Source: Thalassolituus hydrocarboniclasticus (GTDB lineage: Bacteria; Pseudomonadota; Gammaproteobacteria; Pseudomonadales; Oceanobacteraceae). From it: a stretch of DNA of 64,000 nucleotides. Below the pieces are notes generated by a model. The model was given only the letters and a program-made list of their open reading frames with translations, had not been told where the DNA came from and ran no database searches. This document shows, in pieces, positions 35,973 to 41,712 of the stretch. Numbering within the stretch: position 1 is the first letter of the stretch; every line of letters begins with the position of its first letter. Both the position numbers and the translations under genes were made by a program. The stretch spans positions 493,501 through 557,500 of the forward strand of contig NZ_CP054475.1 in NCBI RefSeq assembly GCF_025345565.1, in the 5' to 3' direction.

Positions 35973-36187
35973 CGATAACTCCGTCTGCACTTAATGAGTA
36001 GCGGAATGATAGTAGCGGCTCAGGCTGCGGCTGTTAACCTCTGTGGCTGCGCTGCCTGCTTATTATTGTGTAAATTTTATCGCATAACCTTGTGTGCCCG
36101 GCCTGACCATTCCTCACAATCCCTGACCCAAGCTTAAATTTAAATGCGCATACTGGTAATGGACTCATTTGTTATCAGGTATGCTTT

Positions 36188-36925
36188 ATGGATATTAAAG
36201 GACTGGTGAATCTGTTTCTCAGCTCTGCCACGGATCTTGCTCAGCAAGGTAAGCAGGGCGCAGAGAAGGCTTTGAATATTCCTGCCGAAGGCGAGGCGCG
36301 CAGCGATACCTTATCGACCCTGGCCAAAGGCGCTTTGGGTGGCGGTGCACTGGGTTTGCTGCTGGGCTCAAAAAGCGGCCGCAAGCTTGGCTCAACTGCG
36401 CTGAAGGTTGGTGGCAGCGCCGCGCTGGCTGCCGTTGCCTTTAAAACTTACCAGAGCTGGAAAGCCGGAAAAAACGCAGCGGCTGCTGGTGGCGACCATA
36501 ATGCCGCACTTCAGACTCCGGCCGCGGCTTTACCAGAACAGGCCGCTATCAGCGCCCCCGCACCGAACGAACGTGAAAGCCTGCTGCTGTTATCTGCCAT
36601 GATTGCTGCCGCCAAAGCCGATGGCCATATCGACGACGCCGAACAACAACGCATCAGCAACGCCGTACAGGCCATGGGCGCAACAGCAGAGGTAAACCGC
36701 TTTGTTGAACAGGAACTGCGCAAGCCACTCGACCCGGCAGAAATAGCCGTTCAGGTAAAAGCACCGGAAGAAGCCGCCGAAGTCTATCTGGCCTCGGTGT
36801 TAATCGTGGATGAACAAAACTTTATGGAAAAAGCCTACCTGCAGGAACTGGCCCGGCAGTTAAAGCTGGAGCCTGGTTTGGTGGCTGAACTGGAAAAACA
36901 GGTACAGCTGGCGGGTCAGGGGTGA
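36188..36925 (+). CDS. DUF533/TerB-like membrane-associated protein (YebE type)
   Basis: 245 residues. A glycine-rich hydrophobic segment (LAKGALGGGALGLLLGSKSGRKLGSTALKVGGSAALAAVAF) looks like a membrane hairpin. A TerB-like helical domain follows from about 130: LLLLSAMIAAAKADGHIDDAEQQRI, with acidic residues typical of the fold. In E. coli, yebE is an envelope-stress gene. Expressed alone; no tellurite genes are nearby. Confidence 0.87.
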   Translation: MDIKGLVNLFLSSATDLAQQGKQGAEKALNIPAEGEARSDTLSTLAKGALGGGALGLLLGSKSGRKLGSTALKVGGSAALAAVAFKTYQSWKAGKNAAAAGGDHNAALQTPAAALPEQAAISAPAPNERESLLLLSAMIAAAKADGHIDDAEQQRISNAVQAMGATAEVNRFVEQELRKPLDPAEIAVQVKAPEEAAEVYLASVLIVDEQNFMEKAYLQELARQLKLEPGLVAELEKQVQLAGQG

Positions 36926-36945
36926 CTGATTGAGGATAGCGGACT

Positions 36946-36985
36946 TGCGGCAGGTTAAGAAAGGGTAGTGCGGCAGGTTAAGAAA
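36946..36985 (+). repeat. Short direct repeat after the DUF533 gene
   Basis: TGCGGCAGGTTAAGAAA occurs at 36946-36962 and again at 36969-36985, a period of 23 bases. It lies just outside the cassette array boundary at 37030. Confidence 0.75.
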
Positions 36986-37029
36986 AGTTAGCAGAAAAAA
37001 TGCGCGAGAGGTGGGATTTAATTCTGGCA

Positions 37030-37143
37030 GATTAACGCGGATTTTTCAGAGGGGTTGGGTTGGAACGGACACCCTGTTGGTTTGATTTTGGTGCCCGTTC
37101 AAGCGGGGGAAGATCAGTCCCGTCTTGCTTGGCCTTGTTAGGT
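37030..37143 (-). other. Integron attC site of the CPCC cassette
   Basis: Read on the minus strand: R'' ACCTAAC (37143-37137), then AAGGCCAAGC, an inner stem with ACGGGCACC against GGGTGTCCGT, and a terminal GCGTTAATC (37036-37030) as R'. R'' is the exact complement of GTTAGGT, the start of the cassette it belongs to. It begins 13 bases past the CPCC stop codon. R' is slightly off the GTTRRRY consensus. Confidence 0.7.
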
Positions 37144-37155
37144 TGCGGATTAGCA

Positions 37156-37413
37156 CTACATTTCATCGATATTTGGGCTTCGAACCTGGCCAATATACTC
37201 TTTAGCGCATGCGCCATACTTTGCGAAGTTCTCGCGCGCTAGCTCAAGGCTTAGCTCCCCGTTTGGACCCCCGCGGAAAATGCTGGAATCTGCGTCGCTT
37301 TGACCATCGTCTTCCCAGCAGCAAACGGGACATATCTCGAAAGCTCCAGCCTCGCCTATTGTTTTGAAGCCGCAACAGGGACAAGGCAAACAGTAGTCAG
37401 ACTGTGGCTTCAT
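37156..37413 (-). CDS. CPCC-family cysteine-rich protein, cassette gene
   Basis: 85 residues. Cysteine pairs are CLPCPCCGF near the N-terminus and ICPVCCWEDDG in the middle, a zinc-ribbon-like arrangement typical of the Cys_rich_CPCC family. The C-terminal half has NGELSLELARENFAKYGAC. The family is predicted to include immunity proteins of polymorphic toxins, and is frequent in gene cassettes; function here is unknown. The gene fills the cassette at 37036-37427 and has no promoter of its own in view. Confidence 0.82.
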   Translation of the reverse strand: MKPQSDYCLPCPCCGFKTIGEAGAFEICPVCCWEDDGQSDADSSIFRGGPNGELSLELARENFAKYGACAKEYIGQVRSPNIDEM

Positions 37414-37421
37414 CTTCAGCT

Positions 37422-37506
37422 ACCTAACGCTAAGCTCAGGGGCAGTAAAAAGTAGAGCGAGGTACGAGCGGCGTTTTTTGCTGTCCATTGAAGCTACTTG
37501 TTAACT
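37422..37506 (-). other. Integron attC site of the 173-residue gene cassette
   Basis: Minus strand order: R'' AGTTAAC (37506-37500), TAGCTTCA, inner arm GGACAGCAAAAA, a central CG-rich loop, arm TTTTTACTGCCCC, TGAGCTTA, then R' GCGTTAGGT with GTTAGGT at 37428-37422. Length is 85 bases. The arms pair, and R' fits GTTRRRY perfectly. It overlaps the 3' end of the upstream gene, as attC sites often do. Confidence 0.85.
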
Positions 37507-38015
37507 TTTTTCTCAACTTTAACTTCTCGCTTTCTCTTTCTGATGAATCTTGCTGTATATGAGAAGGCCATTTCTTCCAGATCTTTTGTAAGTTGACTGT
37601 GCGAGAAACCATAAAGTGCAGACAGAGCATTTGTTGTTCTATGTATCCATTCTTTCGCATCTTCCTTTGTCATGGCTCCTTTAGTGGAAGTCTCTTTAAC
37701 GATTGACCAGAATGTTTCTGCCATGACTTCAGATATGCCACCAAAATTAGCCCCCTTTACTTTGTGGTAAAGCACAAGACCTTCATGAAAGTGCTCACGC
37801 AAGTATTTTTCTAGCACATCACTTAGCTCATCCTTCTCAATCTCTGATCTTAATAGATGCAAATTCTTCAAATATGCTTCCATATCAGCCAAAACAGAAG
37901 TTTTTCTATCATAGAGAATTTCAAACGACTTCAGTCTCTGCTGGTTTCTATACGTAAAGTACGCTGCCACTATTGCAGTAATTATTGCCAGATATGGTGC
38001 TATGTTTAGTTCCAC
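37494..38015 (-). CDS. Membrane-anchored cassette protein of unknown function
   Basis: 173 residues from GTG 38015. An N-terminal membrane helix (IAPYLAIITAIVAAYFTY) is followed by an alpha-helical cytoplasmic domain with FEILYDRKTSVLADMEAYLKNLHLLRSEI. The tail is lysine-rich (RKRKREVKVEKKVNK). The base composition is clearly more AT-rich than neighbouring genes. It fills a cassette at 37428-38041. No family recognised; phage-defence or toxin roles are common among such cassette proteins but nothing here shows one. Confidence 0.75.
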   Translation of the reverse strand: MELNIAPYLAIITAIVAAYFTYRNQQRLKSFEILYDRKTSVLADMEAYLKNLHLLRSEIEKDELSDVLEKYLREHFHEGLVLYHKVKGANFGGISEVMAETFWSIVKETSTKGAMTKEDAKEWIHRTTNALSALYGFSHSQLTKDLEEMAFSYTARFIRKRKREVKVEKKVNK

Positions 38016-38048
38016 AGATCTCTCGTTTTTTATTAAGTTAACAGCTTA

Positions 38049-38222
38049 TTAGTGTGCATGCGCATTAATTCGGGGAGGCTCTTTCGAATATTCCCACGTA
38101 ACATATTGAACAGCCTGAAAAATCTTCCATAACTTAAATATCCCTTCCAGAAAAACGCGCACGCCTGTTAATTCTAATTTCCAGCGTACATAAACTTGTA
38201 AACCAGCTTTGTAAATTATTGA
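38049..38222 (-). other. Open frame remnant without start codon
   Basis: Fifty-seven codons with protein-like composition (YVRWKLELTGVRVFLEGIFK and further on WEYSKEPPRINAHAH), ending at TAA 38051-38049. A stop precedes it and there is no ATG, so it is probably the 3' part of a broken gene that once lay upstream of the first cassette. Sequence similarity to a known protein could not be named. Confidence 0.35.
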
Positions 38223-38309
38223 TTAACTTCGCGTTTAAGTTACTGGCCTCCGGCAAAACGAGCAAGCACGAATGTAAAGCGTGCCAGATTTCGTTTAAAT
38301 CCGGAAATA

Positions 38310-38328
38310 TACTGTATGTACATCAGTA
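38310..38328. promoter_or_regulatory. LexA-like box, one base short
   Basis: TACTGTATGTACATCAGTA resembles the SOS box TACTGTAT-N4-ATACAGTA but lacks one base in the right half. It lies about 270 bases upstream of the first cassette on the coding (minus) side. LexA boxes occur at integrase promoters, so this may be a decayed intI control region (inference). Confidence 0.3.
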
Positions 38329-38696
38329 CTTCTTTACGTTGAAAGTTTTGCTATTACCCACAAAAAACCACTGATTGCTGATTCAGACACGCTGCCGCCC
38401 GTCCTTGTAAGCGCAGGGCAGGAATTGCGTGATAAAGCAGTCGGATTTCAGGCGGGGAGGGTATCGGTGCTGAGTCAGATAAACCGACCTGACGGTCTGA
38501 GTTCTGGTGTTGTTATATCGGCGGATACGGCTTCCCTGCTGGACTGAAGAGTACTGAAGTTCTGGGATGGGTTCAATAATTGATAAAACTGGTTACAAGT
38601 GGCTAAGGGCGACAGTTGTTCACTGTCGTGGTCTTATTTTTACTGCAGAGTAGCCGCTGCGCGGTCTGGCTTTTGTAATAGCCTCTGAGCCAATGC

Positions 38697-38858
38697 GGGG
38701 CAAGCCCCTGCGCCCCATGCAAGGAGAGGTATCTCCTTCCGATCCTCTCTTGCGGCTGTCCGGTGCTGTTCAGTCAACTGCGTGGCCAATCCGGCCCGCA
38801 CAGCAATTCGCCCGGAGCCTTATACCGTTTGATAATTTAAATGAATGGGCTCCGGGCC
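38697..38858 (+). repeat. Structured repeat module A, copy 1
   Basis: GGGG-CAAG-CCCC hairpin, then AAGGAGA/TCTCCTT hairpin with GGTA loop, a conserved CGATCCTCTCTT, a CAATTCG box, and a closing stem CCCGGAGCC (38811-38819) with GGCTCCGGG (38848-38856). Copy 2 is at 49299-49460, with a different but still complementary closing stem. Confidence 0.75.
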
Positions 38859-39020
38859 GTACTGTGCTTTCCACCGGATTGCCTGCCTGGTTGACTGGCA
38901 CCGCACAAATGCCGCGTTCATTCAGACGCAACGCGGCTTTTCAAAAGAAACTCTGCCAGCTTTGAAGTTTGGCTTTGCGTCATGGTTTTATGCGCACGTG
39001 GCCCGCCGCAGCGAACGATG

Positions 39021-39204
39021 GTTTTTCTGATCCGCCGGGCATGGATGCCCGGCGAGTGCGCAGCGACAGGGACGTCGCATGGGCGCGTGGTCAGAAAAAC
39101 CGAGTGAGTAAGGGGTTACGGGCCACAAAGCGCGAAGCAGGGAGTTTGCCCGACCGGCGTGAGGGGTAAGACCCCTCAAAGAGGTCATAGGGCCGGGCGG
39201 TAGC
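39021..39204 (+). repeat. Structured repeat module B, copy 1
   Basis: GTTTTTCTGA (39021-39030) pairs with TCAGAAAAAC (39091-39100) around two hairpins, CCGGGCATGGATGCCCGG and GCGACAGGGACGTCGC. A second part has AAAGCGCGAAGC and GAGGGGTAAGACCCCTC. Copy 2 at 49668-49830 has the same ATGGAT and AGGGA loops on different stems. Confidence 0.7.
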
Positions 39205-39238
39205 TCAAAAAGCCAGCCCGCGCTGCGGCTACAACTCA

Positions 39239-39424
39239 GAACACAACTACCTCCAGCAGTAGCACTACCACGCAGAGCGTGGGAGCGAGTCGAGAACACA
39301 TCTACCTCCAGCAGTAGCACTACCACGCAGAGCGTGGGAGCGAGTCGATCATTTCCAGAGCCAGCAACACAGCAGGCACTACCACGCAGAGCGTGGGAGC
39401 GAGTAGGCTATCGCGACTGAAAGT
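39239..39424. repeat. REP-like repeats CCACGCAGAGCGTGG
   Basis: The hairpin CCACGC-AGA-GCGTGG, within CTACCACGCAGAGCGTGGG, occurs at 39265-39290, 39320-39345 and 39379-39404. The first two are part of a 55-base tandem duplication (39239-39293 and 39294-39348). A Pseudomonas-REP-like GCGACTGAAAGTCGC follows at about 39414-39428. Another copy is at 54213-54235. No RAYT transposase is in view. Confidence 0.8.
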
Positions 39425-39572
39425 CGCTCCCACAGGTTGCTCCCGCATGTCGCGGATAAGATCCGGTCCCACACCCTGCCAGCCTGCAGCTGCCACCAAC
39501 ACTGTTCCGCAACGCCGGCTTATGGCAGCATTCCCTTATTGTCATCTTTGATCACCACAGGCCCGAGCCTTT

Positions 39573-40010
39573 ATGTCCGATTCCAATCCGCTGCTGCTCG
39601 ATAAGCAATTGTGCTTCTCTCTGTACGCTACCTCGCTGGCGATGACTCAGGTGTATAAACCTCTGCTGGAGCCGCTGGGGCTGACCTATCCGCAGTATCT
39701 GGTGTTGCTGATTCTGTGGGAGCAGGACGGTCTGGGGCTGAAGGATATTGCCGCGCGTCTGGGGCAGAAGCCGGGAGCGTTAACGCCGGTGATCAAGCGG
39801 ATGGAGGCTGAGGGCTTAATCAGCCGTTCGCGCAGCAGCGCCGATGAGCGGCTGTTGGAGATCCGCCTCAGTGAGCATGGCCGCAGCCTGCGCGAGAAGG
39901 CGTTGCAGGTGAATGCCTGTGCCGCCAGCCACTGCAATGCCGCTATTCCGGAGCTGATGGATCTGAAAGAGCGGCTGGATGTTCTGCGCCGGGCATTGCA
40001 GGGGGAATGA
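39573..40010 (+). CDS. ohrR: OhrR organic-peroxide-sensing MarR-family repressor
   Basis: 145 residues. The reactive cysteine is Cys14 in DKQLCFSLYATSLAMT, followed by YKPLLEPLGLTYPQYLVLLILWEQDGL. The winged helix has LGLKDIAARLGQKPGALTPVIKRME and the wing SSADERLLEIRL. Oxidation of Cys14 by organic hydroperoxides releases DNA in the family. ohr follows after 171 bases that hold two palindromic operators. Further cysteines near the C-terminus suggest the 2-Cys or mixed type. Confidence 0.93.
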   Translation: MSDSNPLLLDKQLCFSLYATSLAMTQVYKPLLEPLGLTYPQYLVLLILWEQDGLGLKDIAARLGQKPGALTPVIKRMEAEGLISRSRSSADERLLEIRLSEHGRSLREKALQVNACAASHCNAAIPELMDLKERLDVLRRALQGE

Positions 40011-40028
40011 TTTTATATTGCGCGCAAT

Positions 40029-40109
40029 AGATTATTGCGATAATCTTTTCTCCATTCTGGCCACACAAGGCCATTTTTTAAAATCATATAGTTATTGCGA
40101 TAACTATAT
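40029..40109. promoter_or_regulatory. Twin OhrR-type operators upstream of ohr
   Basis: AGATTAT-TGCG-ATAATCT at 40029-40046 and ATATAGTTAT-TGCG-ATAACTATAT at 40086-40109 are both perfect palindromes sharing the core ATTGCGAT. A third, TATTGCGCGCAATA, overlaps at about 40016-40028. All sit between ohrR and ohr. Confidence 0.75.
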
Positions 40110-40181
40110 CTTGGTGGCAGCGGGCAGCAACAAACAGCAGCAGACGGTGCCAGCAACGACGAACCGAAAACGGAGAATCCT

Positions 40182-40604
40182 ATGGAAATTTTGTATACCG
40201 CCCAGGCAACCTCAACCGGCGGCCGCGATGGCCGCTCTGTCTCATCCGACCAGGCGCTGGATGTCAAACTCAGCACCCCTAAAGCACTGGGTGGTGCCGG
40301 TGGTGATGGTACGAATCCGGAGCAGCTGTTTGCGGCGGGCTATTCCGCCTGCTTTATCGGCGCGCTGAAGTTTGTGGCGATGCAGGATAAAACCGCGCTG
40401 CCAGCTGACACCGCCATTACCGCGCATGTGGGCATTGGCCCTAATGATAAGGGTGTGGGTTTTGCCATCGACGTTGAGCTGCATATCAGCCTGCCGGGCA
40501 TGGATAACACTGTCGCTCAGACATTGGTGGAAAAGGCACACCAGGTATGTCCATACTCTAACGCTACCCGCGGTAATATCCGTGTTGAGCTGGTGCTGGT
40601 CTGA
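40182..40604 (+). CDS. ohr: Organic hydroperoxide resistance protein Ohr
   Basis: 140 residues. Thiol peroxidase that reduces organic hydroperoxides using lipoylated partners. The two active cysteines are Cys57 ([12 protein letters not shown]) and Cys123 ([12 protein letters not shown]). The N-terminus [17 protein letters not shown] is typical. GGAG lies about seven bases before the start. It is expected to be repressed by the adjacent OhrR. Confidence 0.96.
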
Positions 40605-40710
40605 GTCATCGCCGTCTTTTGTCGGTGTAATACAACGGCGTGTGAGCAGGCACGCCGGCATCTGCTCAGGTGTAACCGCTAAGCCCATTTTTTATGTCAG
40701 GAGAACAACC

Positions 40711-41712
40711 ATGATCAAAGCCTACGCAGCCTTCGAACCGGGTGGTGAACTCAAGCCGTTTGAATACGATCCGGGCCCGCTGGGTGACCATGATGTGGAA
40801 ATCGATGTGGAATACTGCGGTATCTGCCACAGCGATCTGAGCATGCTGAATAACGAATGGGGCATGACCCGTTATCCCTTTGTGCCGGGCCATGAGGTGG
40901 CGGGGCGCATCAGTGCGGTAGGCGCTCATGTGAAAAAACTGCAGGTGGGTGATCGGGTCGGCCTCGGCTGGCATTCCGGTTACTGCAACGAGTGTCAGAC
41001 CTGTATGGAAGGTGACCACAACCTCTGTGCCGGTGCGCGCGGCACTATTGTTGGCCGTCATGGCGGGTTTGCCGACAAGGTGCGGGCGCAGTCCGCCAGC
41101 GTAGTGAAACTGCCGGATAACGTCAGCAGCGAAGTGGCCGGACCGCTGTTCTGCGGTGGTATTACCGTGTTTAACCCGATTGTGCAGTTTGGTGTTAAGC
41201 CTACGGCGCGTGTCGGCGTAGTCGGGATTGGTGGCCTTGGCCATATGGCGCTGCAGTTCCTCAATGCCTGGGGCTGTGAAGTAACGGCCTTTACCTCGTC
41301 GGAAGCCAAGCGCACCGAAGCACTGGAGCTGGGCGCACACCGTACGCTGGATTCCCGTGATGGGCAGGCGCTGAAAGATTCCGCCGGGTATTTCGATCTG
41401 ATTCTGTCGACGGTGAATGTAAAACTCGACTGGGGTTCCTATGTAAATACCCTGCGTCCGAAGGGCCGTTTGCATCTGGTCGGTGCGGTACTGGAACCGG
41501 TCGAGCTGAATGTGTTCGCGCTGATGGGCGGCCAGCGTTCGGTGTCGTCGTCGCCAGTTGGCAGTCCTGCAGTGATTGCGCAAATGCTGGAATTTGCCGC
41601 CCGCCATAACATCGAACCTAAAGTAGAAGTGTTTGATATGGCGGACGTAAATAACGCCATCGACCGTCTGGAAAACGGCAGCCCGCGTTATCGTGTGGTG
41701 CTGAAAAAGTAA
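40711..41712 (+). CDS. Zinc-dependent NAD(P) alcohol dehydrogenase (YahK/CAD type)
   Basis: 333 residues. The catalytic zinc region is VEYCGICHSDLSMLNNEWG with Cys36, then PGHEVAGRI. The structural zinc is bound by the cysteines of GYCNECQTCMEGDHNLC. The Rossmann motif is VGVVGIGGLGHMALQF. This pattern matches broad-specificity aldehyde reductases such as YahK. CAGGAG lies eight bases before the ATG. It follows ohr by about 106 bases and could help remove aldehydes from lipid peroxides (inference). The start chosen is the family one. Confidence 0.93.
   Translation: MIKAYAAFEPGGELKPFEYDPGPLGDHDVEIDVEYCGICHSDLSMLNNEWGMTRYPFVPGHEVAGRISAVGAHVKKLQVGDRVGLGWHSGYCNECQTCMEGDHNLCAGARGTIVGRHGGFADKVRAQSASVVKLPDNVSSEVAGPLFCGGITVFNPIVQFGVKPTARVGVVGIGGLGHMALQFLNAWGCEVTAFTSSEAKRTEALELGAHRTLDSRDGQALKDSAGYFDLILSTVNVKLDWGSYVNTLRPKGRLHLVGAVLEPVELNVFALMGGQRSVSSSPVGSPAVIAQMLEFAARHNIEPKVEVFDMADVNNAIDRLENGSPRYRVVLKK

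Follow-up and report, generated by a model that had tools for sequence, protein, structure and literature searches.

How did two gene cassettes come to lie in a bacterial chromosome with no integrase gene beside them, and can cassettes still enter and leave at such a place? This question is raised by a locus in the 64-kb window analysed here, that is, the whole stretch 493501-557500 of the single-contig, 4.07-Mb genome of Thalassolituus hydrocarboniclasticus (labelled G000); positions are those of the window unless a genome, contig or locus is named. On the minus strand, the locus reads G^TTAACT (38036-38042), an ORF of 173 residues with a GTG start (37494-38015), the R'' box AGTTAAC, G^TTAGGT (37422-37428), the ORF of a CPCC family cysteine-rich protein of 85 residues (37156-37413) and the R'' box ACCTAAC. 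Cassette 1 (37428-38041) and cassette 2 (37117-37427), both on the minus strand, each begin with a box that is exactly complementary to the R'' of the same cassette (7/7; R' GTTAACT with R'' AGTTAAC, and R' GTTAGGT with R'' ACCTAAC), as an earlier sequence-only reading of this DNA had noticed. Both genes that it listed are present, and cassette 1 is AT-rich, with a GC content of 39% compared with 53% in the window.

The CPCC ORF matches PF14206 with 91.9 bits (gathering cut-off 24.5). CPCC proteins are widespread, being found in 84 plasmid records, and two relatives have solved structures (8ey3 and 8ey4); the earlier reading mentions them as suspected immunity proteins. The 173-residue protein, whose N-terminal stretch looks hydrophobic by eye, belongs to no family: Pfam gives nothing above cut-off, searches of plasmids, phages and viral contigs yielded no relatives, and a search among 369 genomes returned one weak match besides the protein itself. 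It appears to be close to an orphan. Its structure prediction, made without an alignment, is poor (mean pLDDT 46.7). Defence functions had been suggested for these genes, a suggestion that is unsupported for both of them, with 0 PADLOC families at E<=0.01; CBASS genes do lie at the orthologous position in another genome, as described below.

A strict search for RYYYAAC/GTTRRRY boxes recovers no attC even in the main array of this genome, and looser scans and a covariance model were used instead. The model (R1) was built from 21 attC sites of the fetched loci with loops trimmed, and the window site was not in the training set. A search over 199.5 kb gave 25 matches at E<=1, and in the 64-kb window the sole match at that threshold is 37425-37503 (30.1 bits, E 4.9e-4). 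This match falls within the attC of cassette 1 (37422-37506, minus strand; R'' at 37500-37506, next R' at 37422-37428), where both the R''/R' and the L''/L' palindromes are evident from the fold and the covariance match. With its own R' put in, the site folds as R''-L''-L'-R' (-9.8 kcal/mol); it is not a strong attC, as the raw genomic region, which carries the R' of the next cassette, folds no better than shuffles (z +1.05). A structural scan, separate from the covariance model, also found this site, plus matches at 645 and 20928, which we took as chance and which the covariance model does not support; on mononucleotide shuffles the same scan gave 3 matches in 312,510 bases. The raw fold is what one would expect if the ORFs and boxes were chance and there were no cassettes, an explanation of negligible probability: it is contradicted by the covariance match, by the exact R'/R'' pairs, by an attI at the predicted edge and by the variable content of the site in relatives.

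The second attC, which had been proposed as a matching site, is a half attC of 27 nucleotides consisting of R'' and the L'' arm (37117-37143, minus strand; R'' at 37137-37143). There is no covariance match at 37030-37143, and the palindrome is incomplete, its L' arm replaced by the end of an IS3-type element (37050-37116, minus strand, a remnant with an approximate far border). The raw fold of 37030-37146 does differ from shuffles (z -2.18), which is caused by the IS hairpin. We had considered 37050-37143 as an attC-like repeat and rejected this, the sequence being an IS end. The cut point proposed at 37036 also finds no support, as the G008 ortholog reads ATTAATC there. Because the element cut its attC, cassette 2 would be locked in; cassette 1 could still be excised or displaced.

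The window segment 37050-37116 is 86% identical to the IS end consensus. Transposase ORFs adjoin such an end in a T. marinus locus (L092, 643-1550), and the IS3 type was assigned from two ORFs in a relative, one with HTH_Tnp_1 and the other with HTH_21 and rve. Of 25 distinct copies, 15 have the IS3-type end 27 nt (13 copies) or 28 nt (2 copies) past the point at which an attC R'' box begins, a share that may be biased by the fetching of part of the loci with a query containing one such junction; by chance this spacing is expected at about 0.3% per copy. Two more copies have an R'' box at 10 and 18 nt. Judged by these junctions, the IS3-type element is a putative attC-targeting IS, of a different type from the IS1111-attC group. 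The last attC of the main array is also interrupted by the same kind of IS, and a half attC with an IS end is found at G000:C1:1556587-1556636 (L074), where there is no attI among the leader-search matches. G000 (37050-37143) and G008 (L019, 2759-2902) carry the same IS remnant and flank behind different last cassettes. A broken attC should rule out exchange of the cassette that bears it, and the common remnant perhaps reflects recombination between IS copies.

Directly upstream of cassette 1, the sequence from 38039 to about 38337 is 87% identical over 299 bp to the leader of the intI gene found elsewhere in the genome. It comprises an A-type attI site (38039-38140, minus strand), with the crossover G^TT at 38042/38041, exactly at the start of the first cassette, and the cassettes to its left, followed by the remainder of the intI leader (38141-38337, plus strand, end approximate). 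The attI is 92% identical over 100 bp to C1:1619641-1619740, the copy beside intI, with 3 differences in the first 50 bp. The homology to the leader ends just before the ribosome-binding site of intI, and no trace of intI was found by tblastn in 36001-41000 (E<=0.01). The claim of a cluster of attC sites lacking integrase therefore holds in that there is no neighbouring intI, and has to be amended in that an attI and the intI leader adjoin the array. A LexA-like box lies at 38312-38326; at 15 bp it is one base short, its counterpart beside intI having 16 bp. Scanning for sigma-70 promoters revealed none directed out of the leader towards the cassettes, and the attI pattern has 0 matches in viral contigs. 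If the integrase had instead inserted the cassettes at ordinary sites of the chromosome (attG), without an attI, one of three origins of integrase-less arrays that PMC8618304 attributes to Cury et al., neither the 299-bp leader match beside the array nor the crossover at the expected base would be accounted for, and this origin is very improbable here.

The 28 aligned copies of this site have TAACAG at the crossover in 24 cases, with conserved bases following it and unrelated sequence on the cassette side, a pattern consistent with that expected for attI. For the A-type copies without intI (n = 28), mean pairwise identity amounts to 0.83 over the first 25 bp and to 0.87 in the 101-125 bin; the remaining bins to 250 give 0.54-0.79, and those at 251-300, which hold the LexA-like box, give 0.44. 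The B-type copies without intI (n = 20) reach 0.85 both in the first 25 bp and at 151-175, with values of 0.49-0.72 elsewhere. We regard this conservation as supportive only, since truncated copies lower the last bins and the second patch at 101-125 is higher than the core in the A type.

The array lies between two genes that are kept in G002 and G008, genomes of sister species: a DUF533 gene on the left (36188-36925, plus strand; PF04391, 205 bits), 97% and 95% identical in these genomes, and a MarR family gene on the right (39573-40010, plus strand; PF01047, 62.5 bits), present as ORFs in loci L018 and L019. The segment 38384-39404 between leader and MarR gene is a mosaic of dispersed repeats, and 38340-39572 has 77 matches within its own genome. 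One repeat of about 233 bp (38384-38616, strand unassigned) is found downstream of the leader in several attI sites without intI. Neither an Rfam match nor a tRNA was found in the 64-kb window.

The earlier statement that there is no integrase is correct for the locus; the genome does have one, at C1:1618473-1619411 (380.8 bits), 1.09 Mb from the window. It is the only integrase above the TIGR02249 cut-off, adjoins an attI of the same type as that in the window and carries the HTFRH and YTHV motifs; a second match, at 3710164 of the genome, is weak and below the cut-off. The adjoining main array (genome positions 1619737-1627211) has 12 cassettes with intI and attI, and all 12 cassette starts match their R'' exactly, so that the main locus is an ordinary integron. 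A genome-wide covariance search, in which 150 of 2722 candidates were scored, gave at least 14 attC matches; the main array accounts for 9 of these, and the remaining 5 all lie at attI sites without a neighbouring intI, which we call orphan docks.

We then counted such docks across the genus. Whole-leader searches in nine genomes returned 43 A-type and 32 B-type rows, from which 32 A and 29 B rows, or 61 platforms, were examined. Eleven A rows were dropped (eight without a crossover end, three without a locus), as were three B rows (one the second piece of a counted platform, two without a locus); the A row 1148185 was kept despite lacking the crossover end, and some of the kept B rows are matches of the attI core only (33-54 bp). 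An intI gene adjoins 8 of the 61 platforms, which leaves 53 orphans in eight of the nine genomes (11, 10, 8, 7, 7, 4, 3 and 3 per genome; none was counted in G007). A tblastn search with IntI over the 53 orphan loci found a remnant in one, L162, of 54 codons. G000 itself has about 12 platforms in all with its single over-threshold integron integrase; its 11 orphans are of A type (7) and B type (4), two of the latter match the core alone, over 33 and 37 bp.

At these docks, attC sites were scored within 2 kb with covariance E up to about 0.05, which used 45 of 65 covariance rows; the others either duplicate a match from an overlapping locus or fall short of this threshold. Of the 53 orphans, 25 have a correctly oriented attC on the cassette side and one has an attC on the wrong side. 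Counted as matches, the ratio of cassette side to wrong side is 35:1, or 44:1 when the intI-linked copies are included. Three orphan loci (L167, L180 and L183) are short on one side. The single wrong-side attC (L167, 2344-2415, 33.1 bits) lies on the leader side of an orphan attI in G001. No nearby attC match was found at 28 of the 53 orphan docks. In G000, seven of the 11 orphans have an attC on the cassette side.

How such docks arise can be read from G044, a member of a sister genus, in which contig C1 has seven leader copies that are 93-100% identical and three core-only matches. The intI gene is intact beside one of the seven leaders and truncated beside the other six, where the matched codons are 1-254, 1-236, 8-244 in two pieces, 1-104 in two pieces, 1-23 and 1-21. 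From the sequences, this series looks as if whole integrons had been copied and intI then lost while attI was kept.

The orthologs of the window site carry different cassettes, which agrees with the earlier expectation of variation at the cassette edges in relatives. The G002 ortholog (a MAG, 86% complete, with both flanks of the site on one 274-kb contig) has an intI-less junction in common with G000 and holds a CD-NTase gene (541.6 bits) and the gene of a 2TM effector (106.1 bits), which together make up a two-gene CBASS system. The attC behind them is weak (18.3 bits, E 0.29), and its R'' has one mismatch to the cassette start. In G008, the corresponding site has a B-type attI-like leader, an IS110-family gene and then five small ORFs, and its array has four attC matches and a half attC. 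The IS110-family transposase gene (PF02371, 95.3 bits; L019, 5893-6924) separates attI from the array there, and in G020 (L061, 1-60) the terminal sequence of the same G008 element abuts attI.

A second orthologous dock is found at genome position 1682790 in G000, C1:102539 in G008 and C4:56775 in G002, with leaders 93-96% identical. Its right flank, 94% identical over 1294 bp between G000 and G008 and 88% identical over 89 bp to G002, starts at the array end, where G000 and G008 read GTT and G002 reads ATC. In between lie arrays of about 2737 bp (G000), 1669 bp (G008) and 880 bp (G002), for which blastn finds no common sequence, save for a related stretch of about 80 bp at the ends of the last two; no covariance attC match falls in the G008 array. 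Cassette edges lie at or next to the cut points. The identity of these leaders and of the G000/G008 flank would permit strains to exchange whole arrays by recombining across the homologous flanks, with no integrase at work at the orphan docks. We regard this as improbable for two reasons: swapping does not create diversity, and it leaves unexplained a cassette that G008 carries in two non-orthologous orphan docks, the window-site ortholog and C3:229808 (98.5-98.7% identity over 452-465 bp), in which identity begins within 2 nt of G^TTAGGC. A 483-bp cassette, 95.7% identical, occupies the first place at a B dock in G008 and the second place at one in G002. The two docks may be orthologs, as the leader and some flank also match.

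Because the window sites of G000 and G002 share the intI-less junction and yet differ in their cassettes, the cassettes changed after the loss of intI. This bears on a further explanation, in which docks and cassettes are inert relics and the differences between species date from the time when each copy had its own intI. The destruction of the second attC by an IS, the LexA-like box that is one base short and the 28 of 53 docks without an attC match would all fit a dead relic, and some docks have clearly decayed (for example, 1148185 with no crossover end). Its weakness is that orthologs with a common intI-less junction differ in cassettes, both at the window site (G000 and G002) and at the 1682790 site (three species), and that nearly identical cassettes occupy two orphan docks of G008. 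We consider it unlikely, although somewhat less so than array swapping.

Taken together, the locus is best described as an orphan attI dock with an array of two cassettes, which has lost its intI and is most likely served in trans by the distant integrase, a reading to which we assign a probability of about 0.78. In this reading it is a former integron copy that retained attI and the leader and lost intI. The single distant integrase would bind the double-stranded attI of the orphan dock in trans and join it to the folded attC bottom strands of circular cassettes, in line with the integron reaction as described in PMC11023631 (double-stranded attI x folded attC bottom strand). In this manner cassettes would still be gained, lost and exchanged at orphan docks; IntI would act in trans to the present day, and the cassettes would be expressed from the leader. 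The sequences themselves show the anatomy, the loss of intI, the differing cassettes at orthologous docks with a common intI-less junction and the cassette carried at two docks of G008. Against action in trans we count the 28 docks with no attC match, the G008 array at the second dock, which has none either, the weak G002 attC, the short LexA-like box and the lack of a detected promoter; the content of docks could also change if whole arrays were replaced through the conserved flanks. A further point against it is that the intact integrase in G008, G002 and G006 is of B type, 71-73% identical to that of G000, and since many docks are of A type, cross-recognition must be assumed in these genomes.

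Extended to the whole family, these observations would describe a distributed integron, in which one intI serves about a dozen integrase-less attI docks and loads cassettes at many places at once. The integrase-less arrays of the family would then be arms of one trans-acting system that came from whole-integron copying followed by loss of all intI genes but one. We lean slightly towards this wider proposal. In practical terms, such docks probably still take up and exchange cassettes by way of one distant integrase gene, and they also carry defence genes, as the CBASS system at the G002 ortholog illustrates.

Several known systems resemble this one in part. The IntegronFinder 2.0 survey (PMC9024848) counts CALINs, clusters of attC sites that lack an integrase, at about the same frequency as complete integrons (2961 and 2760) and describes them as probably degraded integrons. 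In the family studied here, one origin of CALINs is directly readable: attI and leader kept, intI present at several lengths, and cassettes differing later between orthologous docks. According to the same paper, the default of the program needs two attC sites for a CALIN, so the window array, with only one intact attC found (by our own model, not attc_4.cm), would not be called a CALIN. The paper also states that attI is not detected outside class 1, and such docks may for that reason be overlooked in other genera. Among the papers listed by literature searches on orphan, second, multiple, additional or solo attI, none deals with the subject, as judged by titles and the beginnings of abstracts, and a search on Thalassolituus and integron found no paper.

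Compared with a complete integron, the window has the attI crossover and one full and one interrupted attC, with no intI beside attI; as a sedentary chromosomal integron the main array (intI and attI) qualifies, and the window copy is without intI. Like the IS1111-attC group as presented in PMC11187229, the element in the window would insert specifically into attC, but it is of IS3 type and lies 27-28 nt after the R'' start. CALINs and SALINs (single attC sites lacking an integrase), as outlined in PMC9024848 and, for Shewanella, in PMC9229058, likewise have cassettes with attC, no neighbouring intI and an intI elsewhere in the genome, whereas the window array is adjoined by attI and the intI leader and has one intact attC only. 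The Xanthomonas CALINs located away from ilvD (PMC12444791) also occupy several conserved chromosomal positions in genomes with a single intI location, and that paper holds that CALINs can be mobilized in trans. The passages of it consulted mention no attI at those remote positions; in contrast, attI is present at the docks described here, and the content of orthologous docks differs after the loss of intI.
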